From a virus: 23,604 nucleotides of DNA. The stretch covers positions 1 to 23,604 of IMG/VR virus record IMGVR_UViG_3300032093_000850; one strand, written 5' to 3'. The notes under the pieces were generated by a model. The model made no database searches and had not been told where the DNA came from. It worked only from the letters and a program-made list of their open reading frames with translations. A program made the position numbers and the translations under genes. Numbering within the stretch: position 1 is the stretch's first letter; the number at the start of each line of letters is the position of its first letter. Shown piece by piece: positions 1-21,113 of this stretch.

Positions 1-307
1 GCGTGTCACCCGTGGGTGACATAGTAGTCACCCCTGACACTCCCGGCTCAAGCACCACTTCGTACAGCGTGGTGCGTCCGGGGCGCTCGGTGCGCCTGAG
101 ATACCCAGCCGCAACTAGCGCCGGGATCGCGCGCTGAATCGTGCGGTCTGACAGATGGCACGCTTTTGCCAAGGTTGTCACGCTGGCCCATACGTTGCCA
201 CCGAGCCGGTTGGTGAATGTCCCAATCGCGCACAAGACGCGTAAGTGCGTGTCAGAGATGGCCGCATCTGCGACAGCACTTGCTGGGATAATGGAAAGGG
301 CTGGCAT
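1..307 (-). CDS. Replication-initiator-like winged-helix protein, 3' end missing
   Basis: The gene begins with ATG at 307 and runs off the left edge, leaving 102 visible residues without a stop. Residues 20-85 read like a winged-helix domain of the HTH_36 or replication-protein-O type: a first helix (THLRVLCAIGTF), then WASVTTLAKACHLSDRTIQRAIPALVAAGYL split over residues 40-70, and a basic wing (RRTERPGRTTLYEV, 71-84). This pattern is typical of phage and plasmid initiators and also of some regulators. After residue 90 comes a linker (GVTTMSPTGDT) of the kind that, from memory, is often repeated in phage initiator proteins. Its DNA carries repeats that may be an origin. A GAGGAG sequence lies about 12 bases before the ATG, which is rather far. 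It follows the HTH gene by 30 bases. Role in initiating replication is inferred; a transcription regulator is the alternative. Confidence 0.72.
   Translation of the reverse strand, partial: MPALSIIPASAVADAAISDTHLRVLCAIGTFTNRLGGNVWASVTTLAKACHLSDRTIQRAIPALVAAGYLRRTERPGRTTLYEVVLEPGVSGVTTMSPTGDT
3..38. repeat. Iteron-like GTCACCC repeats, possible replication origin
   Basis: The heptamer GTCACCC occurs at 5-11, as its reverse complement GGGTGAC at 14-20, and again as GTCACCC at 27-33. The first two copies form a near-perfect palindrome with a 2-base centre. All three lie inside the initiator-like gene, just after its DNA-binding domain. The layout recalls the iterons inside the lambda O gene. 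The array is cut by the window edge, so its full extent is unknown. The repeats could also be a by-product of a repetitive GVT/GDT linker in the protein. Confidence 0.5.
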
Positions 308-337: not shown

Positions 338-571
338 TCATCGACGGTGACGGCTGTGTCCACCCATGTTCCCCCCACGGGTCCGTCGTGGCTCCCCCAC
401 GCGCTCAAGCAGTGAATGCACGGCTTGAAACGTCGTCCCGACTTGTGCTGCCACCGCACGAATCGACAACCCGCTGCGATACAGCGCAATCACTCGCGCG
501 CGCCGAATCTCGTTGGGTTGGTTCCCGGTGTGGTGGTTCTGGGTGGCAGAAGGCTTACGCTTCCTCGGCAT
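338..571 (-). CDS. Small helix-turn-helix DNA-binding protein
   Basis: A 77-residue basic protein. The N-terminus is lysine/arginine-rich (MPRKRKPS). Residues 21-58 form a resolvase- or Psq-type helix-turn-helix: EIRRARVIALYRSG, then LSIRAVAAQVG, then TTFQAVHSLLERVG, followed by an Arg/Gly tail (EPRRTRGGN). The reading frame is open further upstream, but I chose the ATG at 571 because GGAGGAG and GAGG sequences lie 3-10 bases before it. The start overlaps the end of the nuclease gene by 17 bases, so the two are probably translationally coupled. It has no catalytic resolvase domain and is too small to be a recombinase. A regulator or accessory DNA-binding protein of the early module is likely; its target cannot be read. 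Confidence 0.75.
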   Translation of the reverse strand: MPRKRKPSATQNHHTGNQPNEIRRARVIALYRSGLSIRAVAAQVGTTFQAVHSLLERVGEPRRTRGGNMGGHSRHRR

Positions 572-1400
572 GATCCTCGCTCCTCCACTGTTCGCAGAAT
601 GGGGAGACATCGCAGTAATGCTTGCATCGCTTGTACTCGCCAACTCGACGCTGCACGATGTATCCGTCAGGCACATCCTCTGGGTTTGGCGGCGAGGAAA
701 GCACCTTCAACGCACGCTTCCCGTCCTGCTTGATGATCGCATACGAGTCCCCGCTATACCAACGCTCTTCGTCTGTGCAGTCGATCTCGACGCCTTCTGA
801 CGCCTCCTGATGCAGGATCACCCGCTCCCGGATATACTCCTCCGCTTCCTCCAGCGACCACACCGGGATGGAGATCACCTTGATCGCGGCCTGTGGGTAA
901 TCCGGGTTCCGCTGTGCCTCCGTTTTGCGCCAGTCTCGGAAGATGGCGATCACCTCCAGATGCTCCACGGGATTGCCGTTCTGGTGCGCCAGCCACCGCA
1001 AGATGTTCAACTGTCGCGTCCAGCTATCAGACCCGTGCTGCTTGTAGACGGTGGTGACCTTGTAGTCGCTGATCTTCCCCGACTCCAAATCCATCACATC
1101 GAACTGCCCGGATACCTGCCATCCGTTCACCTCAGCGTAGAGACGCTGCTCTACGATCATGCCCTCTTCCCTCAGGCCAGCACGCTCCAAGATCGTGTGT
1201 ACTGCTTGCCCAAGTAGGGACCACACCCGCTCCGACACATCCACCGAGAGCTTGTCTCGGTGGATGGCCGACAGCACGCGCACGCGCGGAGAGTCGATCA
1301 GCTTAGTGGCGCTAATGTCGCCGCCGCCTGTGTATGGGTCGTTTGTGACAGCTGCCACGATACTCTGTGGCAAGCCGTGCATGTTGGTGATGGTGGTCAT
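555..1400 (-). CDS. PD-(D/E)XK nuclease, RecB/Cas4-like, with C-terminal cysteine cluster
   Basis: A 281-residue protein with the ordered motifs of the RecB/Cas4/AddB nuclease family: GQAVHTILE with His69, VEQRL with Glu84, GQFDVMD with Asp101, ISDYKVT with Asp112 and Lys114, and RQLNI with Gln130 as the QxxxY-type motif. Near the C-terminus C-x3-C-x5-C (Cys259, Cys263, Cys269) resembles the cysteines that bind a 4Fe-4S cluster in Cas4 and AddB; Cys208 could be the fourth ligand, although in the classic enzymes that one lies near the N-terminus. The family cuts DNA, often as an exonuclease. A role in phage recombination, replication or host DNA breakdown is inferred. The ATG at 1400 overlaps the previous stop (ATGA). 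The frame is open far upstream, but that extension overlaps two neighbouring genes and looks like shadow translation. Confidence 0.88.
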   Translation of the reverse strand: MTTITNMHGLPQSIVAAVTNDPYTGGGDISATKLIDSPRVRVLSAIHRDKLSVDVSERVWSLLGQAVHTILERAGLREEGMIVEQRLYAEVNGWQVSGQFDVMDLESGKISDYKVTTVYKQHGSDSWTRQLNILRWLAHQNGNPVEHLEVIAIFRDWRKTEAQRNPDYPQAAIKVISIPVWSLEEAEEYIRERVILHQEASEGVEIDCTDEERWYSGDSYAIIKQDGKRALKVLSSPPNPEDVPDGYIVQRRVGEYKRCKHYCDVSPFCEQWRSEDHAEEA

Positions 1401-2502: not shown

Positions 2503-3012
2503 CTACCTTCGTCCGTTAAGCAGTGCGCGGACTGTCGCGCGGAACGCCTCAAGGTCTAACCCAAGAGGGTCGGTCTTTCTTCCGGGAGGGAGTGCTACCT
2601 CCGCGTGAGTGACGATCCGCTCCAGAGGGATACCGTAGTGATTCACCAGCTGGACGCACACCATTGCGGCCTCAAACAGCTGCGCCTTGGGGTACGTCTC
2701 GCCGTCGTTCCTGTTTGAGAGGCAGACCCCAATGGCAAAGTCGTTGACATCGGACACCCCGTCGAGTGCAGACACCCCACAGTGCCATGCTCGCTGCTCG
2801 GGATGCACCAAAAGAAAGACATTCCCGGTGCGCCCTAGCAGGAAGTGATAGCTGACCTTGCTTTCTGGACGGCGACACCAGTCGAGGGACGTATCCACCC
2901 GATCTGACGCATCCGCGTGCAACACGATGGCGGTGATTCGCACCCCCTCCGGGCGCTTATTGCGATTCGGAGAGGGGCGGGACTGCCACTTGGGGGGCAA
3001 CACCAACTGCAT
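2503..3012 (-). CDS. Endolysin: N-acetylmuramoyl-L-alanine amidase (Amidase_2)
   Basis: A 169-residue single-domain enzyme of the T7 lysozyme/PGRP fold that cuts the bond between muramic acid and L-alanine in peptidoglycan. Zinc ligands are likely His32 (AIVLHAD), His136 (IVTHAEV) and Asp148 (RKTDP). Tyr55 in SYHFLLG and Lys146, two residues before the last ligand, match the catalytic Tyr and Lys of T7 lysozyme, where the third ligand is Cys instead of Asp. AWHCG at 76-79 is also typical. There is no signal peptide and no separate cell-wall-binding domain, so release would depend on a holin. It follows the holin-like gene by 3 bases and is the last gene before the terminator. Function call is strong. 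Confidence 0.93.
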   Translation of the reverse strand: MQLVLPPKWQSRPSPNRNKRPEGVRITAIVLHADASDRVDTSLDWCRRPESKVSYHFLLGRTGNVFLLVHPEQRAWHCGVSALDGVSDVNDFAIGVCLSNRNDGETYPKAQLFEAAMVCVQLVNHYGIPLERIVTHAEVALPPGRKTDPLGLDLEAFRATVRALLNGRR

Positions 3013-16433: not shown

Positions 16434-17762
16434 TTAGATGTGGCTGTAGCGGACAGCGTCCGTGTAGCCCGTGATGCTGCCGTGCGCGTTGCGGGCAAGG
16501 CAAGCCAGATTGCCGTACCAGCCGTAGGTCGTCTCGAACGCATCGCGGCCCTGCATCCAGCGCCACGGACCCGCGCCCTCAAACTCCACGAAGCCCCAAT
16601 CCTTGGCATCCACCCACGCAAGCGACGGGAGGTGCAGGAGGTAGATCGTGCCAGCCGGGACGTAGTAGTCCGTCACGCACGGGATACCACACACTTCGAT
16701 GGCCTTGTAACCACCCTTGATCGTGGTCGAGAACTCGCCCGCCGTGAACCGGCGCTGACCGACCATCGACTCCATGAGCTTCTTGGCAATACCCGGAGTC
16801 GTGATCATCAGGAACTCCTTCGGACGGGTCATGGCGTCCTTGCCGCTACGACCCGCAATGCGCTGGATCAGATCCCAAAGATCCGACTCGGTCGGCTGGG
16901 TCGCATCCGGCGTATCCGTGCCCGCCACCATGCGCGTGGCGTCCCAGATATTGTAGGTCGCGTTGCTGATGTTGTGCAGCGAAGCGTACCCGTTGGCGCG
17001 GTTCGTAATGTTGATCAGCCCATTCATGGCGTTGTTAATGGACGAGTCCGTCGTCGTCGCCTTGACCAGCTTGTCGCCACTAACCGTCCCCGCCACAGTC
17101 GTGGACAGCGTCAGCGTCGAATTGTCTCCGCTGGTGCTGATCGCCGTCACCGAAGCCCGACCACGAACAGTCGGAGTCGCTGCGCCAAGCGTGGTGCCGT
17201 CCACGACCGCCACAAAGTCACCAACGGACACCAGCAGGGCACCCTGACCGGCGTTTGCCACGTTGTACGGGTTGTTCACCACAATCGTCGTCGGCGGGCC
17301 AGCCGTGTACGAAGTGATGTTCGCCACGATGCCATCGGGCTTGTTGTGCAGCGCCTGCTGCATGAGCAGGGTGGAGGCGTCCTTGATTTCTTCCATCGTC
17401 TTCGTGGCGATGGTCGTGAAGGCCGCATCCTTGCTCTGCGTTCCGACGAACGCCAGCCCGTCGATCTGTCGCGTGGTGTACGCACGAACGACATTCACGC
17501 GAGCCTGAACTTCCGTCGCCGCCGTGTCGGGCGGGAAGTAGCCAGCGGACGAGAACGTGGCACCAGCGGGACGACCCACCACCACATCAAAGAACACATC
17601 GTTACCACCCCAGCGCATGTTGCGCGGGCCACCCTGCTTGCCCTTCTGTAGCTGGGCCAGAAGCGGGGTCACAAGGTTCTGGACCTTTTCGCGGAACTGG
17701 CCGTACACGTTCTTCAGAAGGCCAGTCAGTTCCGCATCCGTAATAACTGTCGGTGCAGCCAT
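16434..17762 (-). CDS. Major capsid protein
   Basis: A 442-residue protein with the expected size, composition and position, directly after scaffold. The N-terminal helix (ITDAELTGLLKNVYGQFREK) is followed by NMRWGGNDVFFDVVVGRPAG (49-68) and AYTTRQIDGLAFVGTQSKDA (94-113), which resemble the N-arm and E-loop region of HK97-fold capsids. Then comes the long spine-type helix (TTIATKTMEEIKDASTLLMQ, 116-135). Later segments (LWDLIQRIAGRSGKDAMTRP, FLMITTPGIAKKLMESMVGQ, IPCVTDYYVPAGTIYLLHLP) fit the P- and A-domains of capsids. No fused maturation protease is present. Only a weak AGAG ribosome binding sequence is seen before ATG, which is odd for a gene expected to be highly expressed. Confidence 0.88.
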   Translation of the reverse strand: MAAPTVITDAELTGLLKNVYGQFREKVQNLVTPLLAQLQKGKQGGPRNMRWGGNDVFFDVVVGRPAGATFSSAGYFPPDTAATEVQARVNVVRAYTTRQIDGLAFVGTQSKDAAFTTIATKTMEEIKDASTLLMQQALHNKPDGIVANITSYTAGPPTTIVVNNPYNVANAGQGALLVSVGDFVAVVDGTTLGAATPTVRGRASVTAISTSGDNSTLTLSTTVAGTVSGDKLVKATTTDSSINNAMNGLINITNRANGYASLHNISNATYNIWDATRMVAGTDTPDATQPTESDLWDLIQRIAGRSGKDAMTRPKEFLMITTPGIAKKLMESMVGQRRFTAGEFSTTIKGGYKAIEVCGIPCVTDYYVPAGTIYLLHLPSLAWVDAKDWGFVEFEGAGPWRWMQGRDAFETTYGWYGNLACLARNAHGSITGYTDAVRYSHI

Positions 17763-18860: not shown

Positions 18861-21113
18861 TTACTGTTGGCGACTCAGTGTATCCGCTTGCTGTGCAGCC
18901 ATCTCCTCGTCCGGGATGCCCGCCAACTGCTGCTGCAGGAGGGGGGCAACGCCAATAGGCGGATTGCTGGCAGCAAGGGGTAGCTGATTCGGTGGAATGG
19001 CCGGGACAGACGCAGCCTCTGGGCCGCGAGCCGGTTGGCCTCCTCCGGGCATTCCCGAAGGACCAGCAGACGGCATCATGCCGCCCTGTTTCTGTGCCGC
19101 CTGATTGGCCAGTGCCACCCAGCGCTGCTGGGCAATGGCAATGATTTCCGGCGACAAATCGTCCTGCAGCAGAATCTCGCGCTCCAGCACATCCTGATGA
19201 ATCGCTTCGTTGTCCTGCCACCGAATCTCTGGCGGCAGCGTGCCCATCCGAATGGCGTCGGCCACCCGCTTGGCGCGGGCCTCTTGGTCCTCATCCGGCG
19301 TGGCAATATCTCGGGCCACCGCAAACATCTGCCGACGCCGGTATTCCTTGAGATCGATCACCCCCGACTGAAGCCAGTTGTCCAAGAGGTACATCCGAAA
19401 CGCCATCGGCATGGGCATCATCGTGGACGGCTCAACCCGGACATCGGACTGTCCGTCAAAATCTGACGCACTCACGGCTCGCGCCAGATCAGGACGCCCC
19501 TTCCCAACTGCCCCCAACGAACGGGGCACATCATAGCCCCACGCCATGCCCGCCAGTGTCACTCTCGACCAGTCCGTAAAGGCATGGGCCAGCGCACTGA
19601 CGACAGGGCTGAACACGCGCTCCAACTGCTCGCGAGTTGCGATAATCGCTCGACCAGATTCGCCCGTGGCCTGACCACGGCTGATCTGATTCCAGCCAGA
19701 CGCATTCTCAAACGCTTGTTTCTCCAGCGCCAACGCTTCCTTGACATCGTTGCCAACAGAGAACCCGCTCACGGGCTGGATCGAGTCCGACATCGGTCCT
19801 GCGCCACGGATTTCGATCATGGAGGTCACACCCCCCATGAACGTCTCGGTCGCAATGGCGTTAGGGCGCGTCAGGAACCGCCCACCCGCGTTGACTCGGA
19901 TGTTCTCGACCCACTTGGACAGCAGCGCATTGACGCGCATTTGATGGTCGATCCACTGCTCCATGATCGGACGCGGATAGTACGACGGATCGCTGCTGCC
20001 ATCCGGCACCCGCACCACGGGGATCACGCCCCAGAGCAGCGGGGAAGGGCCAAACACGACCTCGTTCCCCACCACCACCATCTGCAGCCCTTCCGGCAGG
20101 ACATCTGCATGAGGCGCAAGGTAGATCGTGAACCGTTCGGTTACGTCTTCATCGCGAAGCCGCTGGCCCTCGCCAATCGTGGTCTGCGTCAGCACCCACG
20201 CGCCAATGCCTTCCGATCCGGCATAGGTCGGAGCGTTGCCAGTCGAGAGCGTAGTGTCTGCCGCGTCTACGCCAGACGCGCCGTAGCGATACGCGGCTTC
20301 TTGGCGAGAGATTACCTCGCGTACCACGACCCAATGCGGGTCTTGCGTTGCCGTCGCGTTGGGAGAGACGCGCACCTGTTCCACGCGCAGCGTCTGACAC
20401 CCGATGTCACCGAGTGGCTTGCGCTGCCCCGGTACTTCGCCAAGGCGCTCATCCCACGGACCACGATCCGCGTCCCAGTACAAATGCCAGAACGAGACGC
20501 CATCGGTCTGTGCCCAAAACGCGGCTTCCCGCGCCACCCGCAACATCTTTTGCTGATCCCACTGGTGCTCCAGCGACAAATGCTGCGCCTGCGCCTTGCG
20601 CTTGTCGTCCGGGTCTTGGGTCATCGGGGTGACGCTGAACCCCGGCCTCTGATCCATCATGATCTGGAGGCGCTGATCGAGCGCCTTGTCAATCATGTTG
20701 TAGACCACACGGGCCGCATCACGGGGACGGGACGGCTCACGCCACGGGCCAAGCCCCTGCGCGGAGATCCACTGCTGCCCCGCCCGGAAGAGGCGATTCC
20801 GCTCGACCAAGTGCAGATGCATCTGCACGGCTTCCCGGCGCGAGTCCCACAACGACCGGACCCAACTGGCCCACGCCGCTGCGGTCGGCTCCGTCTCGTC
20901 AGCCAATGGGCAATCGTGCCCATAGAGCGCCCGGATCAGGGCTTGCTGCTGCTCCGTGTACGATCCCTGCGGGTTTTCTGGCGGATTCGGCTCGACTTCG
21001 TCGTTAGGCGCGTTTGGGTCGTTGGAGAACCCCGCCAAGATTCGGGCCATCTCATCGTCTACGACCGCGCCAACAAACGCCGGATCGTCTTCTGCGCCGA
21101 ACGGGATCGTCAT
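18861..21113 (-). CDS. Portal protein (P22-like size class)
   Basis: A 750-residue protein, close to the 725 of P22 portal. After an acidic N-terminal extension (1-55), residues 104-117 (ERNRLFRAGQQWIS) and 136-163 (VVYNMIDKALDQRLQIMMDQ, then RPGFSVTP) show the usual portal wing motif with a conserved RP. Residues 168-212 have the typical long helix and AFWAQTDGVSFWHLYWD. Later come a stem and crown region (WIDHQMRVNALLSKWVENIR), and the last 110 residues are Gln/Pro/Met-rich. It forms the dodecameric DNA entry ring at one capsid vertex and binds terminase and adaptor. The start overlaps the upstream small membrane protein gene by 4 bases (ATGA). Assignment is strong from motif pattern and the portal-scaffold-capsid order. 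Confidence 0.9.
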   Translation of the reverse strand: MTIPFGAEDDPAFVGAVVDDEMARILAGFSNDPNAPNDEVEPNPPENPQGSYTEQQQALIRALYGHDCPLADETEPTAAAWASWVRSLWDSRREAVQMHLHLVERNRLFRAGQQWISAQGLGPWREPSRPRDAARVVYNMIDKALDQRLQIMMDQRPGFSVTPMTQDPDDKRKAQAQHLSLEHQWDQQKMLRVAREAAFWAQTDGVSFWHLYWDADRGPWDERLGEVPGQRKPLGDIGCQTLRVEQVRVSPNATATQDPHWVVVREVISRQEAAYRYGASGVDAADTTLSTGNAPTYAGSEGIGAWVLTQTTIGEGQRLRDEDVTERFTIYLAPHADVLPEGLQMVVVGNEVVFGPSPLLWGVIPVVRVPDGSSDPSYYPRPIMEQWIDHQMRVNALLSKWVENIRVNAGGRFLTRPNAIATETFMGGVTSMIEIRGAGPMSDSIQPVSGFSVGNDVKEALALEKQAFENASGWNQISRGQATGESGRAIIATREQLERVFSPVVSALAHAFTDWSRVTLAGMAWGYDVPRSLGAVGKGRPDLARAVSASDFDGQSDVRVEPSTMMPMPMAFRMYLLDNWLQSGVIDLKEYRRRQMFAVARDIATPDEDQEARAKRVADAIRMGTLPPEIRWQDNEAIHQDVLEREILLQDDLSPEIIAIAQQRWVALANQAAQKQGGMMPSAGPSGMPGGGQPARGPEAASVPAIPPNQLPLAASNPPIGVAPLLQQQLAGIPDEEMAAQQADTLSRQQ

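Follow-up and report, generated by a model that had tools for sequence, protein, structure and literature searches.

The replication initiator gene of this virus very probably carries an origin of replication within its own coding sequence: an array of GTCACCC repeats that would act as iterons bound by the protein that the gene encodes. The gene lies at the edge of the stretch of DNA analysed, hereafter called the window (23,604 nucleotides, IMG/VR record IMGVR_UViG_3300032093_000850, positions 1 to 23,604). The features concerned are as follows, in window coordinates.

1 to 307, minus strand: replication initiator gene, N-terminal 102 codons, cut by the window edge (HTH_36 and PHROG matches); exactly the same as positions 3001-3307 of contig L002
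98 to 259, minus strand: winged-helix DNA-binding domain (HTH_36 match, residues 17-70), from the Pfam match and the AlphaFold model
107 to 148, minus strand: recognition helix, residues 54-67 around SDRTIQRAI, including T56, Q58 and R59 (AlphaFold helix 54-67)
131 to 133, minus strand: codon of R59, the residue found to covary with the iteron word
1 to 43, minus strand: start of the linker (from about residue 89), doubling as the putative iteron array (sequence and AlphaFold model)
27 to 33, plus strand: half-site GTCACCC, GGGTGAC in the gene sense, coding VT of GVT
14 to 20, minus strand: half-site GTCACCC, coding SP of MSP; with 27-33 it makes a complete dyad, 14-33
5 to 11, plus strand: half-site GTCACCC, GGGTGAC in the gene sense, coding GD of GDT
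1 to 4, no strand: window edge; beyond it, in L002 only, two more half-sites and then an AT-richer stretch with repeats

The initiator gene begins with an ATG at 307 on the minus strand and its frame stays open through the window edge. The full protein, of 240 amino acids, was read from L002, an overlapping contig which carries the whole gene and is identical to the window throughout the 3 kb compared. A reading made earlier from the sequence only had called the product replication-initiator-like with a winged helix, and this was borne out by a match to HTH_36 (PF13730; 1.2e-12, 47.8 bits against a curated cut-off of 25) and by matches to phrog_270 (1.7e-12), phrog_8102 and phrog_391, all annotated as replication initiation. 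Neither Phage_rep_O nor RepA_N was among the Pfam matches to E 0.1, be it for the window part or for the full initiator. The AlphaFold model has a winged helix-turn-helix domain (residues 9-84) and, after a low-confidence stretch (90-120) matching the iteron-coded linker, a C-terminal part made of helices. Compared to the PDB, it gave weak structural matches only, with 5kbj and 4pql, which we take to be of the RepA_N type, at E about 0.1. Some 0.8 kb downstream of the initiator gene, L002 encodes a DnaB-type helicase of the phage's own (DnaB_C, 1.8e-30); no helicase loader was identified. Just upstream of the gene lies a small HTH_58 protein (338-676, minus strand), a possible regulator. The main genes of the window are all on the minus strand, and include an exonuclease (555-1400), an N-acetylmuramoyl-L-alanine amidase (2503-3012), the major head protein (16434-17762) and the portal protein (18861-21113).

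The three GTCACCC copies, at 5-11 and 27-33 in direct and at 14-20 in inverted orientation, and the linker GVTTMSPTGDT that they encode, were exactly where the sequence-only reading had placed them. What it had described as iteron-like repeats is indeed an array, of which it saw only a part and whose unit it took too small: after reading the array in L002, the single heptamer was dropped for a 20-bp dyad, GGGTGAC-N6-GTCACCC, repeated three times with a period of 22 and 23 bp. L002 contains exact half-sites at five gene offsets, 274(-), 287(+), 296(-), 309(+) and 332(+), and the partner half-site at 319(-) is missing there, being present in some relatives. The half-site at window 5-11 is the first half of the second dyad, and its partner sits just beyond window base 1 (L002 offsets 296 and 309); the search for further repeats to the left, which had been named as a check, hence yielded two more half-sites past the edge. 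In the whole window GTCACCC occurs nine times, against 4.5 expected, the six copies outside the array being scattered singles, and none of 2000 first-order Markov sequences as long as the window had three copies within 30 bp. Searching viral contigs with the 102 residues of the initiator gave 22 loci, L002 being identical. The array is in register across homologues (offsets 274, 287, 296, 309, (319) and 332) at about 50-80% protein identity. Many of them have few full exact dyads, single half-sites being better kept, and every clade member examined has an in-gene array with at least two exact half-sites.

The array is constrained as DNA, beyond the protein. In the linkers of 16 non-redundant homologues, 53 exact half-sites were counted, against 6.2 expected after synonymous recoding (2000 runs on the 16 homologues, maximum 13), and outside the linker these genes contain none. 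Loss of the heptamers at synonymous sites, which the sequence-only reading had named as refuting its proposal, is thus not observed. Since three does not divide the period of the array, the word falls into different frames and codes VT, SP, GD or HP. All five usable frame and orientation classes of the half-site occur, and the sole unused class would make a stop codon. Judging from these comparisons, the protein repeat of the linker is a by-product of the DNA repeat, since half-sites are far above the recoded level, fall in several frames and are absent elsewhere in the genes. Several findings support the idea that one stretch of DNA acts both as linker and as binding site: the presence of the word in all usable frames, the low model confidence of linker residues 90-120, and the non-coding copies of the array and the covariation of word and recognition helix reported below.

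The stretch immediately 3′ of the last half-site is richer in AT than the loci, with an AT fraction of about 0.57 against about 0.39. In the homologues this AT-richer stretch contains 30 copies of AACGRT, against 6.2 expected, spaced by 12-13 bp and read in several frames. The adjacent AT-rich stretch that the sequence-only reading had named as a check was found in L002 as an AT-richer one: past the edge, GTCACCC is immediately followed by AAACGAT and then by three AACGAT repeats with a 13-bp period. A [TA]AACGR border follows 16 of 16 in-gene arrays. A wide set of GTCACCC-bearing initiators has a different 12-bp direct repeat, AACC[AG]TCAN, directly 3′ of the last GTCACCC (61 non-redundant genes, 45 nt past the last half-site; examples are L024, L045, L067 and L100), and identity at lag 12 was 0.385 in this set, against 0.281 (s.d. 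0.010) after codon shuffling. This second type of repeat shows AT-rich codon choice in GC-rich genomes, and encodes the recurrent EPSxEPS motif of HTH_36 proteins. We infer that the AT-richer repeat stretch is a melting element. Cumulative GC skew, the third check of the sequence-only reading, was computed for the window and two relatives; it was nearly monotonic, so that a skew minimum marks no origin in this virus group and the skew lends the proposal no support.

One further exact dyad was detected in 4 of 7 longer relatives, in the non-coding DNA that separates terS from terL. Among the 15 relatives or contigs with terL, 8 have a second array of the same word in this gap, the two genes having been named from the conserved ATPase motif and gene order:

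L311, L312, L316-L319, L322 and L324, upstream of terL, non-coding: second array

The copy in L317 is of the GACACCC variant. As in the in-gene array, the [TA]AACGR border comes next, after which several of the second arrays run into tandem repeats rich in AT, GTAAACGAGTGAACGAG and CTAGTAGCTAGTAG being examples. The distance to the in-gene array was 11.9 and 13.1 kb in two contigs with overlapping ends, and 7.4 kb in G006. The window and L002 contigs gave no terL match, and the counts of the second array concern relatives only. Contig ends overlap by about 661 bases for L304/L305 (G002) and about 203 for L306/L307 (G004); both therefore probably represent entire genomes, about 39 kb long, despite being classed as linear. 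In G006 (the L016 contig), terL and the initiator gene are on opposite strands, unlike in G002, G004 and G007, due either to a rearrangement or to an assembly fault.

In relatives gathered by protein instead of by motif, the linkers carry arrays whose words differ; these words were classed by the two letters before CACCC. The word follows the residue placed after the conserved Q of the recognition helix (R59 in the window). With K at this place, 17 of 17 arrays were GACACCC; with R, 36 were GTCACCC and 3 GACACCC (Fisher 1e-11 for K/R against word, leaving out L011, a fourth R row with GACACCC, which is a tie); with T, TTCACCC was found in both cases. A single-query set, whose query's own array is not GTCACCC, gave a table of 17/0 and 2/16 (Fisher 4e-8). 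Six independent K/R switches were counted on a tree built without the residue-after-Q column, and the word switched with the residue in 5 to 6 of them, never against it (sign test, p ~0.03). This column had been spotted by eye before all columns were scanned, and in the scan it came out as the best single predictor of the word; the -3 column (that of T56) was second, then -6 and -7, all on the same helix. The residue after Q is not the whole code, and the code is partial, since 23 of 65 R initiators have fewer than 3 copies of any NNCACCC word; GACACCC was found in four of the 65, one of them the tie. A held-out set of HTH_36 genes from two bacterial orders, a small and heterogeneous sample in which the frame of a number of genes could not be placed, contained several with in-linker repeats of various words. 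Its only entries with a QR helix were two centre genomes and one array-less gene, and with so few of these, and with unplaced frames, it adds little to the K/R test. Taken together, the dyad symmetry and the covariation of helix and word lend indirect support to an initiator dimer binding the iterons.

The arrays are not confined to close relatives. DNA-only scans, of viral contigs for the dyad and of bacterial genomes for the dyad and the half-site, returned 113 loci with at least 3 half-sites in 150 bp; Actinobacteria, Alpha- and Gammaproteobacteria and Dadabacteria are among the groups represented. HTH_36 was present in 65 of the 101 cluster loci that had a covering frame, against 1 of 48 single-dyad controls (Fisher 1e-14), and some bacterial-genome cluster loci without HTH_36 are ordinary genes, hit by chance. 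The linkers of many HTH_36 proteins look repetitive. Other in-linker words were seen in the HTH_36 initiators of L199, L200, L201, L203, L208, L209, L346 and L348, namely CACCCCCG (17-bp period), GGTGCCCA, ACCCCCTG and GGAGGACCGAC, as well as TGCACCC in nine copies and GGGGTTCA in seven. Scanning with the Curtobacterium Root initiator found nothing, and scanning with a Pseudomonas-type protein found few relatives.

Several other explanations of the array were weighed. That a heptamer clustered at the contig edge by chance, in a window where GTCACCC does occur singly at near-chance frequency, is refuted by the simulated sequences, none of which reproduced the cluster, and is opposed by conservation of the array in homologues at about 50-80% protein identity; the probability of this explanation is negligible. 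We also consider it most improbable that the GVT/MSP/GDT linker is kept for the protein, with the DNA repeat as by-product. The repetitive look of the linker in many HTH_36 proteins would agree with such a protein-level repeat, yet one DNA word codes VT, GD, SP and HP in different frames and covaries with the recognition helix, and the proposal is contradicted both by synonymous recoding, which removes the word, and by recurrence of the word in non-coding DNA.

The position of the second array, next to terS and terL, could point to a site for packaging (pac/cos) or recombination, to which a different protein, for example the small terminase, would bind. However, the word covaries with the recognition helix of the initiator itself, and all clade members examined have the in-gene array, against 8 of 15 with terL that have the terS-terL array, which makes this explanation very unlikely. 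Somewhat less improbable, though still unlikely, is that the array binds the initiator mainly for autoregulation or copy control (silencing of its own transcription, handcuffing), the origin being elsewhere, for instance at the terS-terL array. The array does sit inside the initiator gene, and the non-coding array of relatives, with its long AT-rich tandem repeats, looks at least as origin-like. Nevertheless, the in-gene array has an AT-richer stretch of its own with the same AACGRT border, about half of the terL-carrying relatives show the in-gene array only, and such in-gene arrays are origins in lambdoid phages and in pSK41 (PMC7466680, PMC5703833). The candidate phage origin put forward by the sequence-only reading is thus supported by sequence evidence, its activity as an origin being what we infer from it.

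If the array is an origin bound by its own initiator, the winged-helix domain, probably as a dimer, would bind the GGGTGAC-N6-GTCACCC dyads, which are spaced by some two helical turns where the gene codes the presumably disordered linker. Binding to the array would then lead to opening of the adjacent AT-richer stretch with its AACGAT repeats, and the helical C-terminal domain of the initiator would recruit the DnaB-type helicase that the phage itself encodes just downstream.

Comparable arrangements have been described. In lambda (O and ori-lambda) and in lambdoid Stx phages, iterons in the middle of the gene are bound by a dimeric initiator and have an AT-rich tract beside them, and extra iterons lengthen the initiator protein (PMC7466680). 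Here too, as far as sequence goes, repeated sites lie in mid-initiator gene next to an AT-richer stretch. Unlike lambda O, however, the initiator is of the HTH_36 type, without a Phage_rep_O match, and the word is different; unlike in ori-lambda, the AT-richer stretch has a 12-13-bp AACGRT direct repeat, and the downstream helicase is a DnaB-type enzyme of the phage's own, no P-like loader having been identified. In SPP1, oriL lies inside gene 38 and a non-coding oriR about 13 kb away; both are bound by gp38, each combines repeats with an AT-rich stretch, and the helicase, as in our case, is phage-encoded and of the DnaB family (PMC6316719). Relatives with an in-gene and a second non-coding array resemble SPP1 in plan, and differ from it in the site of their second array, which is the terS-terL gap in 8 of the 15 relatives with terL. 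In the pSK41 Rep protein (RepA_N), the N-terminal domain binds four Rep boxes placed centrally in rep, the central part is a dispensable linker, and the C-terminal domain, which interacts with primase, cannot be dispensed with (PMC5703833). The sites described here are likewise within the initiator's own gene, in its linker part, but in a phage, not a plasmid, and in an initiator without a RepA_N match. Rep proteins of Paracoccus plasmids share the HTH_36 domain with the present initiator and, in the part of the source available, have iteron-like repeats in their oriVs, with a partial iteron overlapping the rep start codon in pAES7; in contrast to our case, no in-gene linker arrays are described in that part (PMC3832669). 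RepAM/AICE origins were set aside, as their domain is different. On our best reading, the array would work as in lambda O, SPP1 gp38 and pSK41 Rep; by domain, the initiator is neither Phage_rep_O nor RepA_N.

No published description of these arrays was found in the open-access literature searched, outside which such work could exist, and GTCACCC as a text string led to unrelated papers only. In-gene iteron origins are of a known kind; their breadth here and the apparent recognition code appear to be undescribed. On balance, we favour the broader view that these arrays mark a class of phage and prophage replicons with a very wide distribution, in which the origin inside the initiator gene would consist of an NNCACCC dyad array and a 12-bp direct-repeat melting element. 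A few recognition-helix residues would largely determine the word, origin specificity could therefore be read from the protein, and repetitive linkers across phyla would be by-products of origin DNA.

To our knowledge, the origins of most phages are not known. If the above holds true, those of many phages and prophages with HTH_36 initiators could be located without any data beyond the sequence, for hosts ranging from Actinobacteria to Proteobacteria, and the odd repetitive linkers of HTH_36 proteins would be explained as DNA sites. The match between K or R and the word would moreover offer a direct and cheap test of how initiator and origin co-evolve when the gene of the former contains the latter.
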